Positions 5,451 through 60,349 of a DNA stretch of 64,000 nt are shown here, one piece after another. The notes below the pieces were generated by a model. It saw only the letters and a list, made by a program, of their open reading frames with translations, was not told where the DNA came from and ran no database searches. Position 1 is the stretch's first letter; every line of letters starts with the position of its first letter. The translations under genes and the position numbers were made by a program. Source of the DNA: Apostichopus japonicus (Eukaryota; Echinodermata; Holothuroidea; Aspidochirotida; Stichopodidae); assembly GCF_037975245.1 (NCBI RefSeq), contig NC_092564.1, positions 14,635,984 to 14,699,983 of the forward strand, given 5' to 3'.

Positions 5451-7612
5451 AGTAATGAATTTGATTCAATCCTCAACATTTCGTCGAACGGACACTTTTC
5501 AAAGCAATATAAAAGTCATGTAAACAGGTTTGGACTTTGCTTCACTACTTGAAGTGGAACTTGACTAAATAAACAAATGGGGTATACTTTGTTATGGGAT
5601 ATTAATATGGACTATAACATTGAAATATTTAGCAATTTCAACTCAAAACCTGCTCGTAGCAAACTATAATGAGAAAGTGCCTTTCTGTTGAAACACAAAA
5701 AAATTATTAAACGGTGTCGTGTAGTTGAAAACAGATATTCCAATACTGGAATTTGTGAAAACAGAATACACAAGCAATTCTACTTTTCTGGTAATTCTGA
5801 AGAAGCGATTTTGTGGTTCGCATCCTCAAATTAAAGTAGTATGTCCAACTGCCATTCGTAATTTGTGGTAGCCTATACCTCCCCCCCCCCTACCCCACCC
5901 TTCCCAGTCCATCCGATTGCACCCTCTTCTGAATAAGGTTGAACGAAGTCTATGAAGGGGCAGATCTATCGTACTTTTTTTTTTATAATACTTTATAGTT
6001 TCTCAAGCATTTTATATCAGTGCAACATATCTTACCGTGAGAGATATTATGCTGTCACATTAAACTGCTACAAATAGTTGTCAGGTGAACAAATAAGCAT
6101 TATATGTCTCATAAATATACCGTATAAATTACACGACAATCAGAGGAGTCGAGGCTCAGGTCGGGTCCAGAGGAAAGTTTGTCACCGGAACCCCATTTTA
6201 AAGCCTTCGTATATCCCATGTTTTTTCGGGCCGTCACCCTCAGTAATTTTCCAGGACCCACAAATTGACTCCGGGTTGTACTTACTTGATCTTCCTCCAC
6301 CTCCACCTCCATCTCCACCCCCCCCCAACCGCCCCCCCATCCCCAAACACCACCTCTCGGCAAGCCTGGTTACACTTTAATATTACATCGTCTAAAACCA
6401 CGTACCTGGTTATCTCCCAAAAAATAGAAACATTTACAAACGAAATTCCAACAAGATGTCGCTTTTGGAGACTACTTAGTGGAGAGAGCTTTATTCTGAT
6501 TAAAAAGCAATGGTCATCAAATTTTGCTCTTTGCTCTAAACCATTGTTATTTATCAATGAAAAATGAATTTCAGTGTCTGAAAATGTGAATAAATTCCCT
6601 GTTTGAGAAGAGTTTGACCATTTTCGTCTTTCTCAGATTGCGAATTCTGGCTGTTTTGGAGATGTTTTTTGATCCTAGGCTACAGCTAGCCGTCTCCATG
6701 ACTTGTCTATTAAGTCTTCGAGATACTACAGAAAAAAAGCAACAGTGTTTATTTTATTTTATTTATTTTTATCACAAGAGACTCACATCTTTAGGGTTTT
6801 AAACTAAATCTCAATTCTGTCATCCATCATGAATAAGTTTGATGCCTACATTAAAATATATAATAATACTAATGTTTGTTACCTATATAAGCTCGATTCA
6901 TTTTCACCGGGCTACATAAAATATCACACGTTTTTATTCTTAGTGACTTGCGTTGCTTATATGCTTTACCATTATGATAAATACTAAAACCTAAATATTA
7001 AAGAACCCATAAAAATGTCAACACATCTCTCGGTTCAAGCCCCCCCCCCCCACCTTCCCACCCCACCTCCACTTCATTCGCAATGCATAGATCACATAGT
7101 CGTCACCCTTAATTGCAGTGTTTTTAATTCTTTGTGTTTTTTTTTTGGCAATATGCGCTTTATAATAACGCAATATTAACTTCGTGACAAGAAATTATAT
7201 TTCAATTGAAACAGCAAACATGAATTAAATTTCATAAGCCGATTACTTCTATATAAATTCAGGTTATTGCGTGCATGCATTATTCGCTTCGAAGTTGATG
7301 GGCCTGATGTTACTTTGAATTAAAGAATACTTAGTATAATACTTTGCAGCACTTTTTAATAAGGAGGAAGGGAGCTTGATTGACTCGGTCTTAGTTTTCC
7401 AAAGTACAATCTATAATGAATCAGACATTAATGTATTGTAATGTATCAGAATTATTGAGTAGGAGACCATTAGCCAGACTTTCAGTAACTGATAAACGTG
7501 ACCATCACATCCACAAGAATGTTGAACGACATCCACAAGTCTGTCACATTAAATTTGTTTGTATCTGTATACGTGTTTGTATTTCGCTATTGGCTAATAC
7601 TTAACAGTTATT
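5451..7612. other. No gene seen
   Basis: Unique sequence with C-runs at about 5880, 6318 and 7039. The proline-rich frames around 6265-6380 come from these runs. Confidence 0.6.
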
Positions 7613-8172
7613 GGTGAAGCTATAGGTGCAAATGTTGTCCTGTATTGATCGTAATGGTGAAGCTATAGGTGCAAATGTTGCCCTTTATTGATCGTAATGG
7701 TGAAGCTATAGGTGCAAATGTTGTCCTGTATTGTTCGTAATGGTGAAGCTATAGGTGCAAATGTTGTCCTGTATTGTTCGTAATGGTGAAGCTATAGGTG
7801 CAAATGTTGTCCTGTATTGTTCGTAATGGTGAAGCTATAGGTGCAAATGTTGTCCTGTATTGTTCGTAATGGTGAAGCTATAGGTGCAAATGTTGTCCTG
7901 TATTGAATGTAATGTTGAAGCTATAGGTGCAAATGTTGTCCTGTATTGATCGTAATGATGAAGCTATAGGTGCAAATGTTGTCATGTATTGATTGTAATG
8001 TTGAAGCTATAGGTGCAAATGTTTTCATGTATTGATCGTAATGATGAAGCTATAGGTGCAAATGTTGTCCTGTATTGATCGTAATGGTGAAGCTATAGGT
8101 GCAAATGTTGTCCTGTATTGTTCGTAATGGTGAAGCTATAGGTGCAAATGTTGTCATGTATTGATTGTATTG
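7613..8172. repeat. 43-bp minisatellite, 13 units
   Basis: The unit starts GGTGAAGCTATAGGTGCAAA and ends CCTGTATTGATCGTAAT. Units differ mainly in GATCG/TTCG and GGTG/GTTG/GATG positions. 43 is not a multiple of 3, so no frame is carried through. Confidence 0.97.
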
Positions 8173-41220: not shown

Positions 41221-44194
41221 CTGTTCAATGAAAATGCAGCAAAAGAAACAAGAAATGAGAGAAGAAAATGAAAAAATGAGTATCTTTTAGCCTTGAGATA
41301 ATTGTTATTGTAGCCATTGCAGCCATGTAGCTTATTCCTCCCGGACGAAGCACTCGACCGTACGCCAGACATATACAAATTGGAGAAATAATACAGTTTG
41401 CCATTTGTATGAACTACCAGATCAAGTGGATAGTTTTTATTTAAGAATAAAAGAATAACATTGCAATGTGAGGAAAGATATCGGTGAAGATAATCAGATT
41501 CTCATACTTCAGTCTTAAAGAGTCTCAATATGTGTTCGCTGTTGAATTTCGGAAAACAAACTTCCAAAGTAGATGCAATGTTTCTTATTCTTAATGCACT
41601 CTGACCAGGTGGGTTTAATAGAGATAAGCTGTTCGCAATCGAAAGAAAGAAATTTATTTTCTGTTGCCCTTATGGCGGGAACGATTTACCGTAAAATCAC
41701 TGCGACCGCCCATGTCAGCATGTTTATTACACAAATGTAAACAAAATAGTCTACACATGCGGCCGATCAAGATTGTAACGCAGTCCTATACTCGTATCAT
41801 CCACTTTTTTACAATGCCACGGAGGAAACGTCTGAAAATCTGTTTATTCATTGCAATGGAAGGAAATGACACAATTTCGCAAGCTACCTCGGTAAGACCG
41901 AGAGAAAGATACAAGAGCAGGAACCATAAGACAGGCTTGTCACGAAAGTAAGCCTAGGCTTAAACAAAACAGTAAACAAAACAGAGAGATTTGATTGGCG
42001 TATGATCTGTTGGGCGGGGCTTGCAAATTTTGATTAAAGCTTGGTGAATCTACGGACTCGTTAAATAAATCTGACAAATTTTATTCAGTTCAAAATGTTT
42101 AACGACATATAACTCAATGAGGAAAAATGAATATTAATATCAACATTGCATTGAACGGTGTCGTTTTCACTGAACTTTTAGTGCAGTAAGCTGGAGAAGT
42201 CGAAGTTTATATTTGGCAAACAAGTACTGTGACTTTAACGTAAAGGTTTAGGAGTTGTGACTTAACCTCCGCCACGTACCACGATCTTGCGCAAGGTTTA
42301 TTGCTTCCTCGAAATTGTTAATGTTCACGTCCTTAAATAACGATTTTATTTTTCCAAGCAAGGTAGTCACGGGCCTTCCTATTGGTTTAGCAGTGTGTAT
42401 CAATGCTTCTCTTAAAGCAAACTTTGCTGGAGCGTCCTCCTGGAGTCTTGCTACATGACCGAAAAATCTCAATCTTCTATGTGCGACAATGGATGACTAA
42501 GGTGTTTGGTTGGTTTCATTGTAGAGCTCATCGTTTGATAACCAATTGTTATTGGTCAATCTAATGTTGAGAATATTACGAAGTAGTCTCCTTTGAAAAG
42601 TGTCAATATTGCGATCAAGATCCTTCGTTGTGCCCCACAGTTCGCAATTGTAAAAAAAAAAAAAATACTCTTTAATAAATCCTCGAAAATCCTAAGCTTA
42701 ATTTTTCGGCTTATGTTTTTGCTTTTGAAAATCTTGACAGTGTGTTGAAAGCACCGTTCATTTTAATAACGGGTGACCATTCTTATATACTTACTCTAGC
42801 TTCTGGCATTATATAAGGCTCTGGAAGATGACGACTCAACATTTTCTTCCGTAAGACAAAAGCAATTCGACAAAGTAACAGTAAAGTCAGTGTTCCGAAA
42901 GAAGGAGCCAATACGTACAGAACTAGAAAACAAGCAGAGACAAGTATGAGGTGCCGTTTATGACAAAATTATAATCCAATATATAGGTTATGAAACCATA
43001 TATATATATTTACGGCTCCTCATAGACAAGCACGATCATGTTAAACAAAAGAAAATATTAAACATGTTACAAAATAAGATCATGTACATTTCTAAGAGAA
43101 TTTGTTGCTTTTTTTTACGGTATGCTAACGTACAAGAGCCAAACAACACACATGTCGTATTATTATATGGTATGCTGGTATATGTATTGAAGGCTAACAA
43201 TTTCATTCGCTTTATTTTTTTGATAATTTACCACATGGCTTTCCATTCTTGATAACATTTATATACGTTTATATCATATAAGATATTTCTTCAATGTTTT
43301 TTAGTTTATTATTAATCTCTTCTATTTAGCTCCTTGACAATCGTTTCACTCCCCCCCCCCCTAAAGGGGGCTTGATCGCAAATTGGTTGGAACTAAGTAT
43401 AAAAAAATTATGTCATGAATTTCATGTTATCTAAATTGGATCAGTAAAATGTGGAAGAAATCTGTGAGTTGGTTAAAAATAGAAGTCAAGAATTGATCAT
43501 TCTTTGGATTGTGTTTGAAGATGAAATTACGATATAAAGTTACCTATATTCGGCGGTGGGAATCCCTTCAAAAATAACACAGCATGAATGGTTGACCACC
43601 CTGCACTCGTGGAAGCATAGAGAAGAACATCATAATCTATGTATGGATCTGAAGTGAAAGGGAACGTACCGTATTTGTTGAAAAATGATTTACATCATTA
43701 TTTTATGATTATTACTTTAATATCGGAAGGAAATATTGGTCTACAGAATGACAATTATTATGCCATCTCAATGAACCCCCTCCCTCTAACGTGCACCTGA
43801 CAAAGTGGAATAAAAAATGAAAAAGTGAAGAAAAAAAATGATGCGTCTGTATACTCTACAGTTTCTGCCATATGTAGTCAATTTCCAGTCAAACTTCATT
43901 CTTGTTGTTATTTATCTCAGTCAGTCCCTGGTGTACCTCTGCTTAATGAAGGTAACGAAATAACATGAAAGTATACCCTCTAGCTGGATTTGTTTTCTAC
44001 ATATTATAGTCATCAAAATGATGTGCCATTTACCTTCTAGTTCCACTGTCGTCTCTCTTCCACTGACGTTCTTTTCGCGTACTGTATGTCGAGACAAGTG
44101 TTCAACAATCAATAGTTTGTAGCCTGTGATGATACCATTCCTGTCGTCTTCTTGTGGGGGCTTTAAGATTGGACATAAACAAATGTATACTATG

Positions 44195-44234
<40 letters not shown>

Positions 44235-44313
44235 ATAATATACTTAACTAAACTATCATCATACTGCTACTCGGAGTTTCACGTGTGCGGCTCGCGCACC
44301 GATCATCAGGCAA

Positions 44314-44385
<72 letters not shown>

Positions 44386-44520
44386 CTTTAATGAAAGAAT
44401 AACATAACTATATAAAGTATTATACAACCGAATCGAGTTTTATAGTTGACGTCGTCATCGAGTCAACCAGCGTTTGACAGAAATAATCATTGTTGGATAT
44501 TTACCAATTACAAAGCTGAT

Positions 44521-44575
<55 letters not shown>

Positions 44576-47500
44576 TGGTACTACGCCGATATGGTTTGAT
44601 CTTGTATATGTATTTTAGATCCTCCTGCAAGCAAGAACTCGCGAAGAAGCCTCATTGGCTTATCAAAGCCACAAGCTGACCGAAGTGACTCTTAGAGTCA
44701 TATTTAACGCCCATGATTATGAATTGTTAATTGTCAACAACTCTGTAACTGGACGACATACATTAATCTGGGAGTGACTAGAACCGGGGACCTTATGATT
44801 GAAAGGCACCGGCGTTAACTACGTACGGAGCTAACACTCCAAGTCAATCTTGACAATTAGAGACAGCTATCAGAATGTGTACATCTGCAATCAAAGTTCC
44901 ATTTGTTGGGCTATGACACATCAACAACCAAATCCCGTCTAATGTCTTCGCTTCGAACTAATTCGAATTACTTACAAACGAGCCTTGGTGATCCCACTAT
45001 CATATGTATATATAAGGGCGGTATATGTGCAGGTGTAGGGAGTTTCATTTTTAACTAAGGAAAATAATATTTGTATATAGTTACTTACATCCCATGATAA
45101 AGTTACGGTCCTTTCTTTACGTCCATTTATTCTCGAATCCTCTGTTTTCGTTAGATTCAATGGAGAACCAGATGGAACTGTATATATAATAATAATAATA
45201 AATAAGTTCTTAATGTAGCGCCAAATACCAAAAGGCCTCTAGGTGCTTTACAAAACCTAAAACAAATAGAAACATAAAAAGACAGAGAAATCAAAGGAAT
45301 AAGAAGTCTAGAAAACACATAAACGAAAATTAAACAGTATGTAAAATACGAACATAAAAATCTTAAAACACGAGAAGACTATAAAACAGACCAAAACCTA
45401 TAAAAAAAAACAATATTTTTATATAAATTAGTACCGTGCATTGAAATTTAAAGATATAGATATAAGCCGTTATTTTCGTTACTGAATGCTGTCACAGAGA
45501 CAGCAAACTGGGGTACCTTGGAGTTTTAAATTGAAGAACATTAATGACAGTTGCAATAATTATACACAAGTTTACAGGGGCGAGCAGCGATGTGATAAAT
45601 CAGAACTACAATTGATATCACAACAGGAAATTCAGTAGATGCATGGTCATGCGAAACCTTCCCGAGACAAGTTACAGGTAAGAAATAGTATGGTGGATAT
45701 TGTTTGTAACGTCATCATGGTATTTTATTTCATTGATGTCCTTGAAAAGGTATAATTAAATAAATAAATCGAGGATATAATTATGTACTCTTCAAAAGTG
45801 GAACAACGTACTAAATATAAGTTTAACCAATGTGTAGCATTGTAATTTGGGTGTATAAGAAGGTTTGTGGACTTTGAACTCACTAAAGGGGGGAAATGAT
45901 ACACAACTTATAATGTTCTATTTTCAGACTTTGATATCTCTTGACCACAAGTGACCTTTGACTTTCAATAATACATTTCGGAGATCGTATCTGCGAGCGC
46001 GCATTGTTCCTGTCTGTGACCTTTCTGTAGGATACAGGTCAGTCGGTAACCATGCAGTGAAATATATAATCCCACTCCGGAATATTTCTAACATCTTAAG
46101 TCAGCGAGGGCATCTATTTTACCTAAACTGTTTCTCTTTTTAAACAAAAGATGTTTGAAATATAAAACATGTATTTATACGATCTAACTTTTCCAGGTAA
46201 CATATTTACTACTAACAACTGTGAATTTCGAATATATGTATGCTATCTATTGAGTGTGGTATGTAATGTGTACAAATATAAATAAAGTAATACACTTACA
46301 TTACCGGAGATTGAGAAAGGATAAAAATTGCATTGATTTTCTTACAATGTTACAAAGCCGAATTCTTAAAATTGTTCCTCATATAGCTGAATTTTAAGGC
46401 ATTTTAGGGCATTTTACGACTATTGAGGCGAGCTTCAGGATGTATAGCCAATCTAATAATATAAGTCAATCAGCTTACCTTTCGTTATTGTGAAGTTACA
46501 CGATAACGAGGAAAAGTTGCCATAGACAGTGCCATACCTGGCGTATTTAAAACGGACTCGATAACACACTTCGGTGTGACCCGGTAATTCAAATATTTTC
46601 AGTTTTGGAGATGTGGTAACACTCCTTTCGTTCTCTGGTCCAAATAGCTCATCCTGAAGTAGAAAAACAAAACATACTTTGAAATCCCTCTGTTGAGTTG
46701 CAATTAATTTCTGGCACCAAATGAGGCAGTAATGAGTCTCTCCATCAAATCTGAAGCTTTTTTTTTTAAGTTTCTCAAAATATCCAACAAGAAACGTTTA
46801 TAATTATAAAACGTATCTAAAAATACAGTTTGCTATTTTTCAACTTCTACTTTTCTCTTTGAAAATAAATCTTCAATTAGCAAGCTGACTATTAACCTAT
46901 TTTGTTATAGGATTTATGTTAGTTCTAGTTTTTGCATTTTGAACTAATCGCATACTTCCATGGATGTCATGGGCATTGTGCTACCCATTGCATAGTATGA
47001 TCAAAAAGATATCAAGAAACGTCAGCCGCCACTATATACTTGACTCAGCCGCAGTTAACCCTGCACGTGATTTTGGTAACATCAGACACTACAGGTGTTG
47101 GCAGCACCGTTGGGGGGGGGTGGATGGGGGGAGATCATGGCCTTTCGTTCCGCATTTCTCCTGCCAATATCGCTTCTTTACCATGATGTATTCTTCCAAG
47201 GAAGTTCTATTACATTCTTAATTTCCCTCCAACTCTCACTAATTGTGAATAATCCTATATGTATCATTAATATATTGGATTAAGTCGCTTAGACATTTTC
47301 ATCACTTTGGATATGGATTTGGATAAACTTGGTCTAATTTGACATCTTGTTACGTAGTCAGTCTGCCAGTTGGACCGACTGCACAGTGTAGTACTCTGGC
47401 TCCACCTCTCTCGCTCTCGCTCTGATTCCAGCTAAATACTATATATATACACCTGGTGTCAGTTGTTAATGTGCACTCGATCATTTCATTACCTGTATCG

Positions 47501-59994: not shown

Positions 59995-60287
<293 letters not shown>

Positions 60288-60344
60288 TATTCCGCTCGGT
60301 CCAATGGACATAGAGCACTCTGCGCCAAGATAGACGCCAACCTA

Positions 60345-60349
<5 letters not shown>

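Follow-up and report, generated by a model that had tools for sequence, protein, structure and literature searches.

A probable Penelope-like insertion with a type I hammerhead in an intron of the sea cucumber Apostichopus japonicus

Introduction

Does a hammerhead-like motif in an intron of Apostichopus japonicus serve the gene in which it lies, or did it arrive there with a mobile element? The motif belongs to a stretch of 64,000 nucleotides (contig NC_092564.1, positions 14,635,984 to 14,699,983; hereafter "the window"), and a sequence-only reading had placed it, in sense orientation, within an intron of a cytokine-receptor gene, where cleavage during transcription could affect splicing. 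The answer that we prefer, with a probability of about 0.84, is that the window copy is a short Penelope-like insertion with a pLTR hammerhead, probably an inert or weakly active passenger of the intron. Hammerheads in Penelope-like elements (PLEs) were reportedly described by Cervera & de la Pena in 2014 and by Lunse et al. in 2017; for hammerheads in sea cucumbers, no ribozyme paper could be recognized by title among the literature matches listed.

Results and Discussion

The hammerhead and its host intron

On the minus strand the window sequence from 44315 to 44260 reads AGTTGC CTGATGA TCGGTGCGCGAGCCGCACACGT GAA ACTCCGAGT A/GCAGTATG, with the slash at the cut. Stem I pairs 44314-44310 with 44267-44263 (GUUGC/GCAGU, two of the pairs being G-U), the core CUGAUGA occupies 44309-44303, stem II is formed by 44301-44282 and has U opposite U (44302/44281) at its base, and stem III is ACU-CCG-AGU at 44277-44269; the cut follows A44268 and is preceded by G-U-A. 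All parts of a type I core are present: CUGANGA ... GAAA, an NUH before the cut, and three stems, open at stem I. Re-reading the minus strand bore out the parts, coordinates, stems and weak points given by the sequence-only reading, and the cut, which had been placed about 107 nt before an exon acceptor, lies 107 nt upstream of the acceptor-like AG that precedes 44160 (Table 1).

The nature of the host gene is less clearly defined. Translation of the downstream exon alone matches fn3 with an E-value of 0.2; the joined exon translations reach 7e-5 and 23.4 bits, below the curated cut-off of 25, and their best match in PDB is neogenin (E 0.0065). Matches of this kind do not establish the cytokine-receptor label given earlier, and the gene would be fn3-like at best.

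Table 1. Features read in the window (strand "." where none applies; R1 is the covariance model of family 1, 37 sequences).
Feature	Position	Strand	Remarks
Type I hammerhead-like ribozyme	44260..44315	-	cut 44268/44267; 89 bits with R1, a model built from the window copy among its 37 sequences
Short arm, putatively a Penelope-like insertion	44231..44315	-	5' limit at the recurrent end A44315; 3' end without tail (...TATTATGTGA), followed by (TA)n
(TA)n tract downstream of the arm (minus-strand sense)	44195..44231	.	repeat search
(TA)n tract upstream of the arm (minus-strand sense)	44317..44385	.	repeat search
Downstream host exon, fn3-like translation	44034..44160	-	boundaries implied by AG/GT
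Second hammerhead, sister family	60213..60260	-	AGUUGU CUGAAGA ... ACUCCGAGU U/ACAACU
No-tail arm with second hammerhead	60181..60260	-	ends CAACA before (TA)n; sequence read
Inverted partner arm with tail, cut off before hammerhead	60261..60349	+	ends TACTCTA before (TA)n; by eye against the pLTR of locus L114

An apparently recent copy of a dispersed repeat

Judged by itself, the motif says little. The loose pattern CTGANGA..GAAA has seven matches in the window against 3.95 expected, at least seven being found in 9 of 100 shuffles, and plain folding of the window copy was uninformative (z -0.11; 88 of 200 shuffles fold equally well). The loose motif alone is thus near chance level, and the window hammerhead is more than chance because the whole unit is a dispersed repeat. 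When the window's own genome (671,581,487 bases in 35 contigs) was searched with 44190-44335, a search in which the best candidates alone were scored, 152 matches came up; of those listed, 50 span the hammerhead unit (E<=2.3e-30) and most others are TA-tract pieces. A strict pattern, CTGATGAN{12,34}GAAACTCCGAGTAGCA, has 84 exact matches in the genome; a looser one, CTGANGAN{6,30}GTGAAACTCCGAGT, has 812, a count that takes in family 1 plus a few nested double counts. The reversed control gave 0 in each case. Over the 88-nt unit 44315-44228 the window copy is identical to seven other places among the fetched loci, and it therefore looks recent.

Rfam detects no hammerhead in the whole window at the gathering score, in 43900-44700 at E<=10, or at the copies of the three family loci submitted (L009, L091 and L106). 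The covariance check proposed with the sequence-only reading thus came out negative at the window copy; since Rfam is silent at family copies also, this reflects the coverage of the library. What emerges is a class of hammerhead that has hundreds of pattern matches in one animal genome and that goes undetected by Rfam at the copies tested. The best Rfam score near the copy came from a pestivirus model lying over the TA tract (34.6 bits, cut-off 90), and was put down to composition.

Association with an open reading frame and the Penelope-like architecture

Longer family-1 copies run upstream of the hammerhead into the end of an ORF, the stop codon of which, in locus L039, ends 12 nt before AGTTGC. 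At L114, a locus of a sister family, an 821-aa stop-to-stop ORF lies between two direct repeats, each with a hammerhead, and is 46-52% identical to the family-1 ORF pieces; direct pLTRs with the hammerhead inside them therefore surround an ORF in the one element examined, and an inverted pLTR with an optional tail is found in the family loci. Searches of the ORF against Pfam, NCBIfam and PDB returned nothing usable, with sub-threshold or unrelated names at most. The ORF pieces have motifs that we take to be RT-like and GIY-YIG-like, and we read the hammerhead repeat as the probable pLTR hammerhead of PLEs. The combination of direct pLTRs, inverted pLTR and optional tail matches the architecture of the Penelope elements described in excerpts of PMC3846280 and PMC11167929.

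PLEs are known to carry minimal type I hammerheads, which may act as dimers (PMC7761336 and PMC6155905, in excerpt); the published examples resemble ours in being located in a pLTR, in their very short stem III, in the dimer proposed for them and in having no obvious loop-loop contact. In the copies described here the U-U opposition at the stem II base is conserved and stem III is ACUCCGAGU; unlike in those accounts, the 5' end of short insertions is the edge of the hammerhead. In the green anole Poseidon/Penelope element PAc (PMC11167929, in excerpt), too, a hammerhead is found in the pLTR near the ORF start, targets are AT-rich, and RT has two adjacent internal start sites, which delimit the genomic "tail"; PAc differs in that its ORF starts inside the hammerhead and that RT is initiated within the ORF, whereas in L114 the hammerhead and both ends are, by eye, upstream of the first ATG. 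Penelope elements of Adineta vaga (PMC3846280) share the direct pLTRs, the inverted head-to-head pLTR, the optional tail on one inverted pLTR and an Inr-like sequence, and the passages on these families mention no hammerhead.

The course of events that we favour is as follows. A minimal type I hammerhead would lie in the pLTR, right after one ORF and right before the next, and would probably form the first ~50 nt of an RNA initiated in the pLTR. RT would begin at one of two internal sites downstream and run to the 5' end of the RNA, onto a TA-rich break, so that even the shortest insertions would retain the whole hammerhead; the window copy would be an 85-nt product joined into a TA microsatellite within the intron.

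Ends of the insertions

The 5' limits of 101 family-1 arms were mapped on L039, position 0 being the A of TTC/AGTTGC. Exactly at this base are 11 of the 101, with 25 within 2 nt and 34 from -2 to +7; the remainder comprise 49 that lie more than 13 nt upstream, 11 from -13 to -3 and 7 beyond +7, in a sample where arms were found by their hammerhead, those cut inside it are under-counted and a few loci are segmental duplicates. The window arm has its limit at position 0. Among 40 family-2 arms, taken mostly from close pairs, 20 start exactly at the equivalent A and 37 within 2 nt.

Both families read TCAGTT at the recurrent 5' end, presumably an Inr, and L114 has TATATATT, which we take to be a TATA box, 32 nt upstream of it; no TATA-like box was seen by eye at the usual distance in the family-1 sequence. 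We infer that the recurrent 5' end is a transcription start, and the shortest insertions suggest that transcription starts at, or close to, the beginning of the hammerhead. That the end at AGTTG is instead where RT stops, where RNA is processed or where joining is favoured deserves serious weight, short of even odds: some arms begin at +1 to +7, microhomology occurs at many junctions, and family 1 has no visible TATA-like box. Set against this, the same base recurs in two families within TCAGTT and L114 has its TATATATT at -32, and the hammerhead cut would leave ends at GCAG, which is the exact start of none of the 101 arms.

At their outer ends, 52 of the same arms have no tail, 42 have a 52-bp tail and 7 are cut short. 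(TA)4 follows within 25 nt in 34 of the 42 tail arms and in 52 of the 52 no-tail arms, where it is part of their definition; it is found in 347 of 20,000 random 25-mers of the window. If the tail is, as excerpts of PMC11167929 have it for the anole element, the stretch between two RT start sites, the window copy has the recurrent 5' end and the first of these sites as its limits.

The arm ends also bear on whether the unit is a retrozyme, a non-autonomous tandem hammerhead repeat spread via circular RNA. Metazoan retrozymes, reported at ~170-400 nt in many invertebrates, are likewise small dispersed units with type I hammerheads (PMC7229834, in excerpt), and the small size of our unit, its type I hammerhead and the (TA)n on both sides would suit one, as would L041 (C15:23122200-23123600), which has three same-strand units ~187 and 374 bp apart with TA tracts between them. 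According to the same excerpt, however, retrozymes are tandem and are expressed as circles, whereas the window copy is a single arm of an ORF-linked family; in 49 of the 101 arms the 5' limit extends continuously into the ORF, and the fetched family loci are mostly head-to-head pairs and ORF-joined copies. Tandem units at ~170-400 bp are lacking at the window copy, L041 being one tandem locus among those fetched, and we consider a retrozyme unlikely.

Head-to-head pairs and the tail rule

Every classifiable head-to-head insertion, 43 of 43, consists of one tail arm and one no-tail arm (24/24 in family 1 and 19/19 in family 2). The family-1 pairs are a first 21 plus L042, L039 and L040; dropped were L085 and L093, in each of which one arm is cut short, L013 and L041, where all arms are on the same strand, an extra same-strand fragment in L081, and L043 (same place as L052). 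The family-2 pairs (L135-L151, L153 and L154; L152, which is not head-to-head, was left out) were fetched from 22 head-to-head neighbours within 1.2 kb, counted by eye among the places listed for contigs C1-C3, and their tail or no-tail class was read by eye; the no-tail arm of L148 has no (TA)n at its end. In family 2, 17 of the 19 junctions are distinct (L137, L145 and L150 are alike). The family-1 comparison covered the 15 short junctions among the 24 (the other 9 are long) and gave 14 distinct strings (L017 equals L074, from which L034 and L087 are one base off). Repeated junctions mean that the pairs are not all certainly independent events, and, as most junctions differ, most cases are not explained by a pair that was inherited ready-made.

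The account of Adineta vaga favours self-priming for head-to-head arms (PMC3846280, in excerpt), a mechanism which is disfavoured here since the two ends are unlike in every classifiable pair; the pairs fit an insertion that is initiated twice, separately, once at each site. The tail rule would accordingly be a testable constraint on Penelope integration, and we make no claim that it is unpublished. The start site did not differ between strands in the anole experiments, as excerpted from PMC11167929, an observation that neither supports nor excludes two initiations.

A further proposal, which we think quite improbable, is that the main job of the hammerhead is to pair two element RNAs, on each of which one end of the target break is primed, with cleavage being secondary. 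With a near-palindromic stem III right at the transcript's 5' end, an RNA dimer would form and the two ends of one break would be primed at different start sites, which would explain both the pairs of one tail and one no-tail arm and their frequent meeting at the hammerhead edge; against it, anole templates truncated to +20 of the ORF, with most of the hammerhead gone, still inserted in vitro (PMC11167929, in excerpt).

Predicted folding, dimers and a role in the intron

Stem III, ACUCCGAGU, is self-complementary apart from its central C, and a dimeric ribozyme is therefore plausible. Dimeric action is the most likely mode in the source elements, where two RNAs would pair through ACUCCGAGU and cut element RNAs, and the hammerhead would probably serve there to trim or separate RNAs. 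Each of the three family-2 RNAs tried has as its two-strand MFE a double hammerhead in which stem III is slightly longer (-23.0, -29.2 and -24.8 kcal/mol). For the window copy, nearest-neighbour energies, which ignore tertiary contacts and protein, put the hammerhead at -6.3 against an MFE of -13.3 kcal/mol as a monomer and at -24.6 against -35.7 kcal/mol as a dimer; the commonest family-1 sequence gives -4.3 against -12.1 and -20.6 against -30.4 kcal/mol, respectively. The window copy is thus predicted to misfold, other folds being favoured whether it is alone or a dimer. Excerpts of PMC11167929 report that the anole PLE hammerhead cut in vitro only with its protein, and that catalytic mutants of it left insertion in vitro unchanged.

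Much of this tells against a functional intronic hammerhead, in which co-transcriptional cleavage at 44268 would modulate processing of the receptor-like gene. The sense orientation and the intact core 107 nt before an acceptor-like AG are what such a role would call for, and the conserved intronic hammerheads of amniotes, such as that in RECK, are alike in being type I, intronic and in sense orientation, resemble those of retroelements and have been proposed to take part in splicing (PMC6155905, in excerpt). The window copy, by contrast, is an apparently recent mobile copy without sign of conservation, as its 88-nt identity at seven other fetched places indicates; its hammerhead fold is disfavoured by 7 kcal/mol as a monomer and 11 kcal/mol as a dimer, and it is the single hammerhead of its class in the intron, the next in the window being 16 kb off. 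We therefore hold this role to be very unlikely, and as an intronic switch the window copy is probably of no importance. The sequence-only interpretation stands as regards a short-stem-III type I fold of the retroelement kind, in sense orientation before an acceptor-like AG and probably dependent on a dimer; a conserved or specialised intronic ribozyme gives way to a retroelement insertion.

Conservation of the fold

The stems are kept by compensatory change between families. Within family 1 there is no signal of covariation, 51 of 500 shuffles reaching the paired cells and 96 of 500 the score. Between families the set was 33 distinct rows from 44 matches in 30 sources of our own choosing, with the alignment fitted to the model, and there 97.9% of cells pair (reached by 0/500 shuffles), 21 cells are altered on both sides (0/500), six pairs are altered on both sides (3/500) and the covariation score is matched by 0/500; the number of further pair types is matched by 57/500 shuffles. 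Stem III is invariant across families, partly since the search pattern fixed it: the family-2 copies were sought with ACTCCGAGT fixed, and covariation between families says nothing on stem III there. The U-U opposition at the base of stem II, noted above for the window copy, is a family trait, present in 72 of 75 family-1 copies. Chance resemblance to a hammerhead, to which a loose motif near chance level and the silence of Rfam might point, can be dismissed given hundreds of copies, 0 matches in reversed controls and stems that covary between families.

A divergent hammerhead at L076:1008-1054 on the plus strand differs in its stem I pairs and has ACUCGAGU, which is shortened and fully palindromic.

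Other hammerheads and features of the window

Searching the window with R1 gave a second match on the minus strand (60260-60213; 30.1 bits, E 3.1e-6), which belongs to the sister family: 60186-60345 has 74 matches in the genome, some of them partial pieces. The stretch 60181-60349 is a Penelope-like head-to-head insertion in a TA microsatellite, one arm with a tail and the other without, as judged by eye.

A different hammerhead family, outside the window in the same genome, is represented by loci L098-L105 and scores over the Rfam Hammerhead_1 cut-off at 50 of 69 listed places, a count based on the best 74 of 66,307 candidates scored. Several of the eight loci read have directly upstream a stretch that we take, by its box A and box B, to be tRNA-promoter-like, and most have (TA)n downstream; this family is possibly a SINE-like element sharing PLE machinery.

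Within the window, a tRNA-like gene is located between long TA tracts at 2754-2826 on the plus strand (47.2 bits in Rfam; Cys with anticodon aca according to ARAGORN), and two tandem repeats are found at 620-1456 (33 bp, 25 copies) and 7612-8169 (43 bp, 13 copies).
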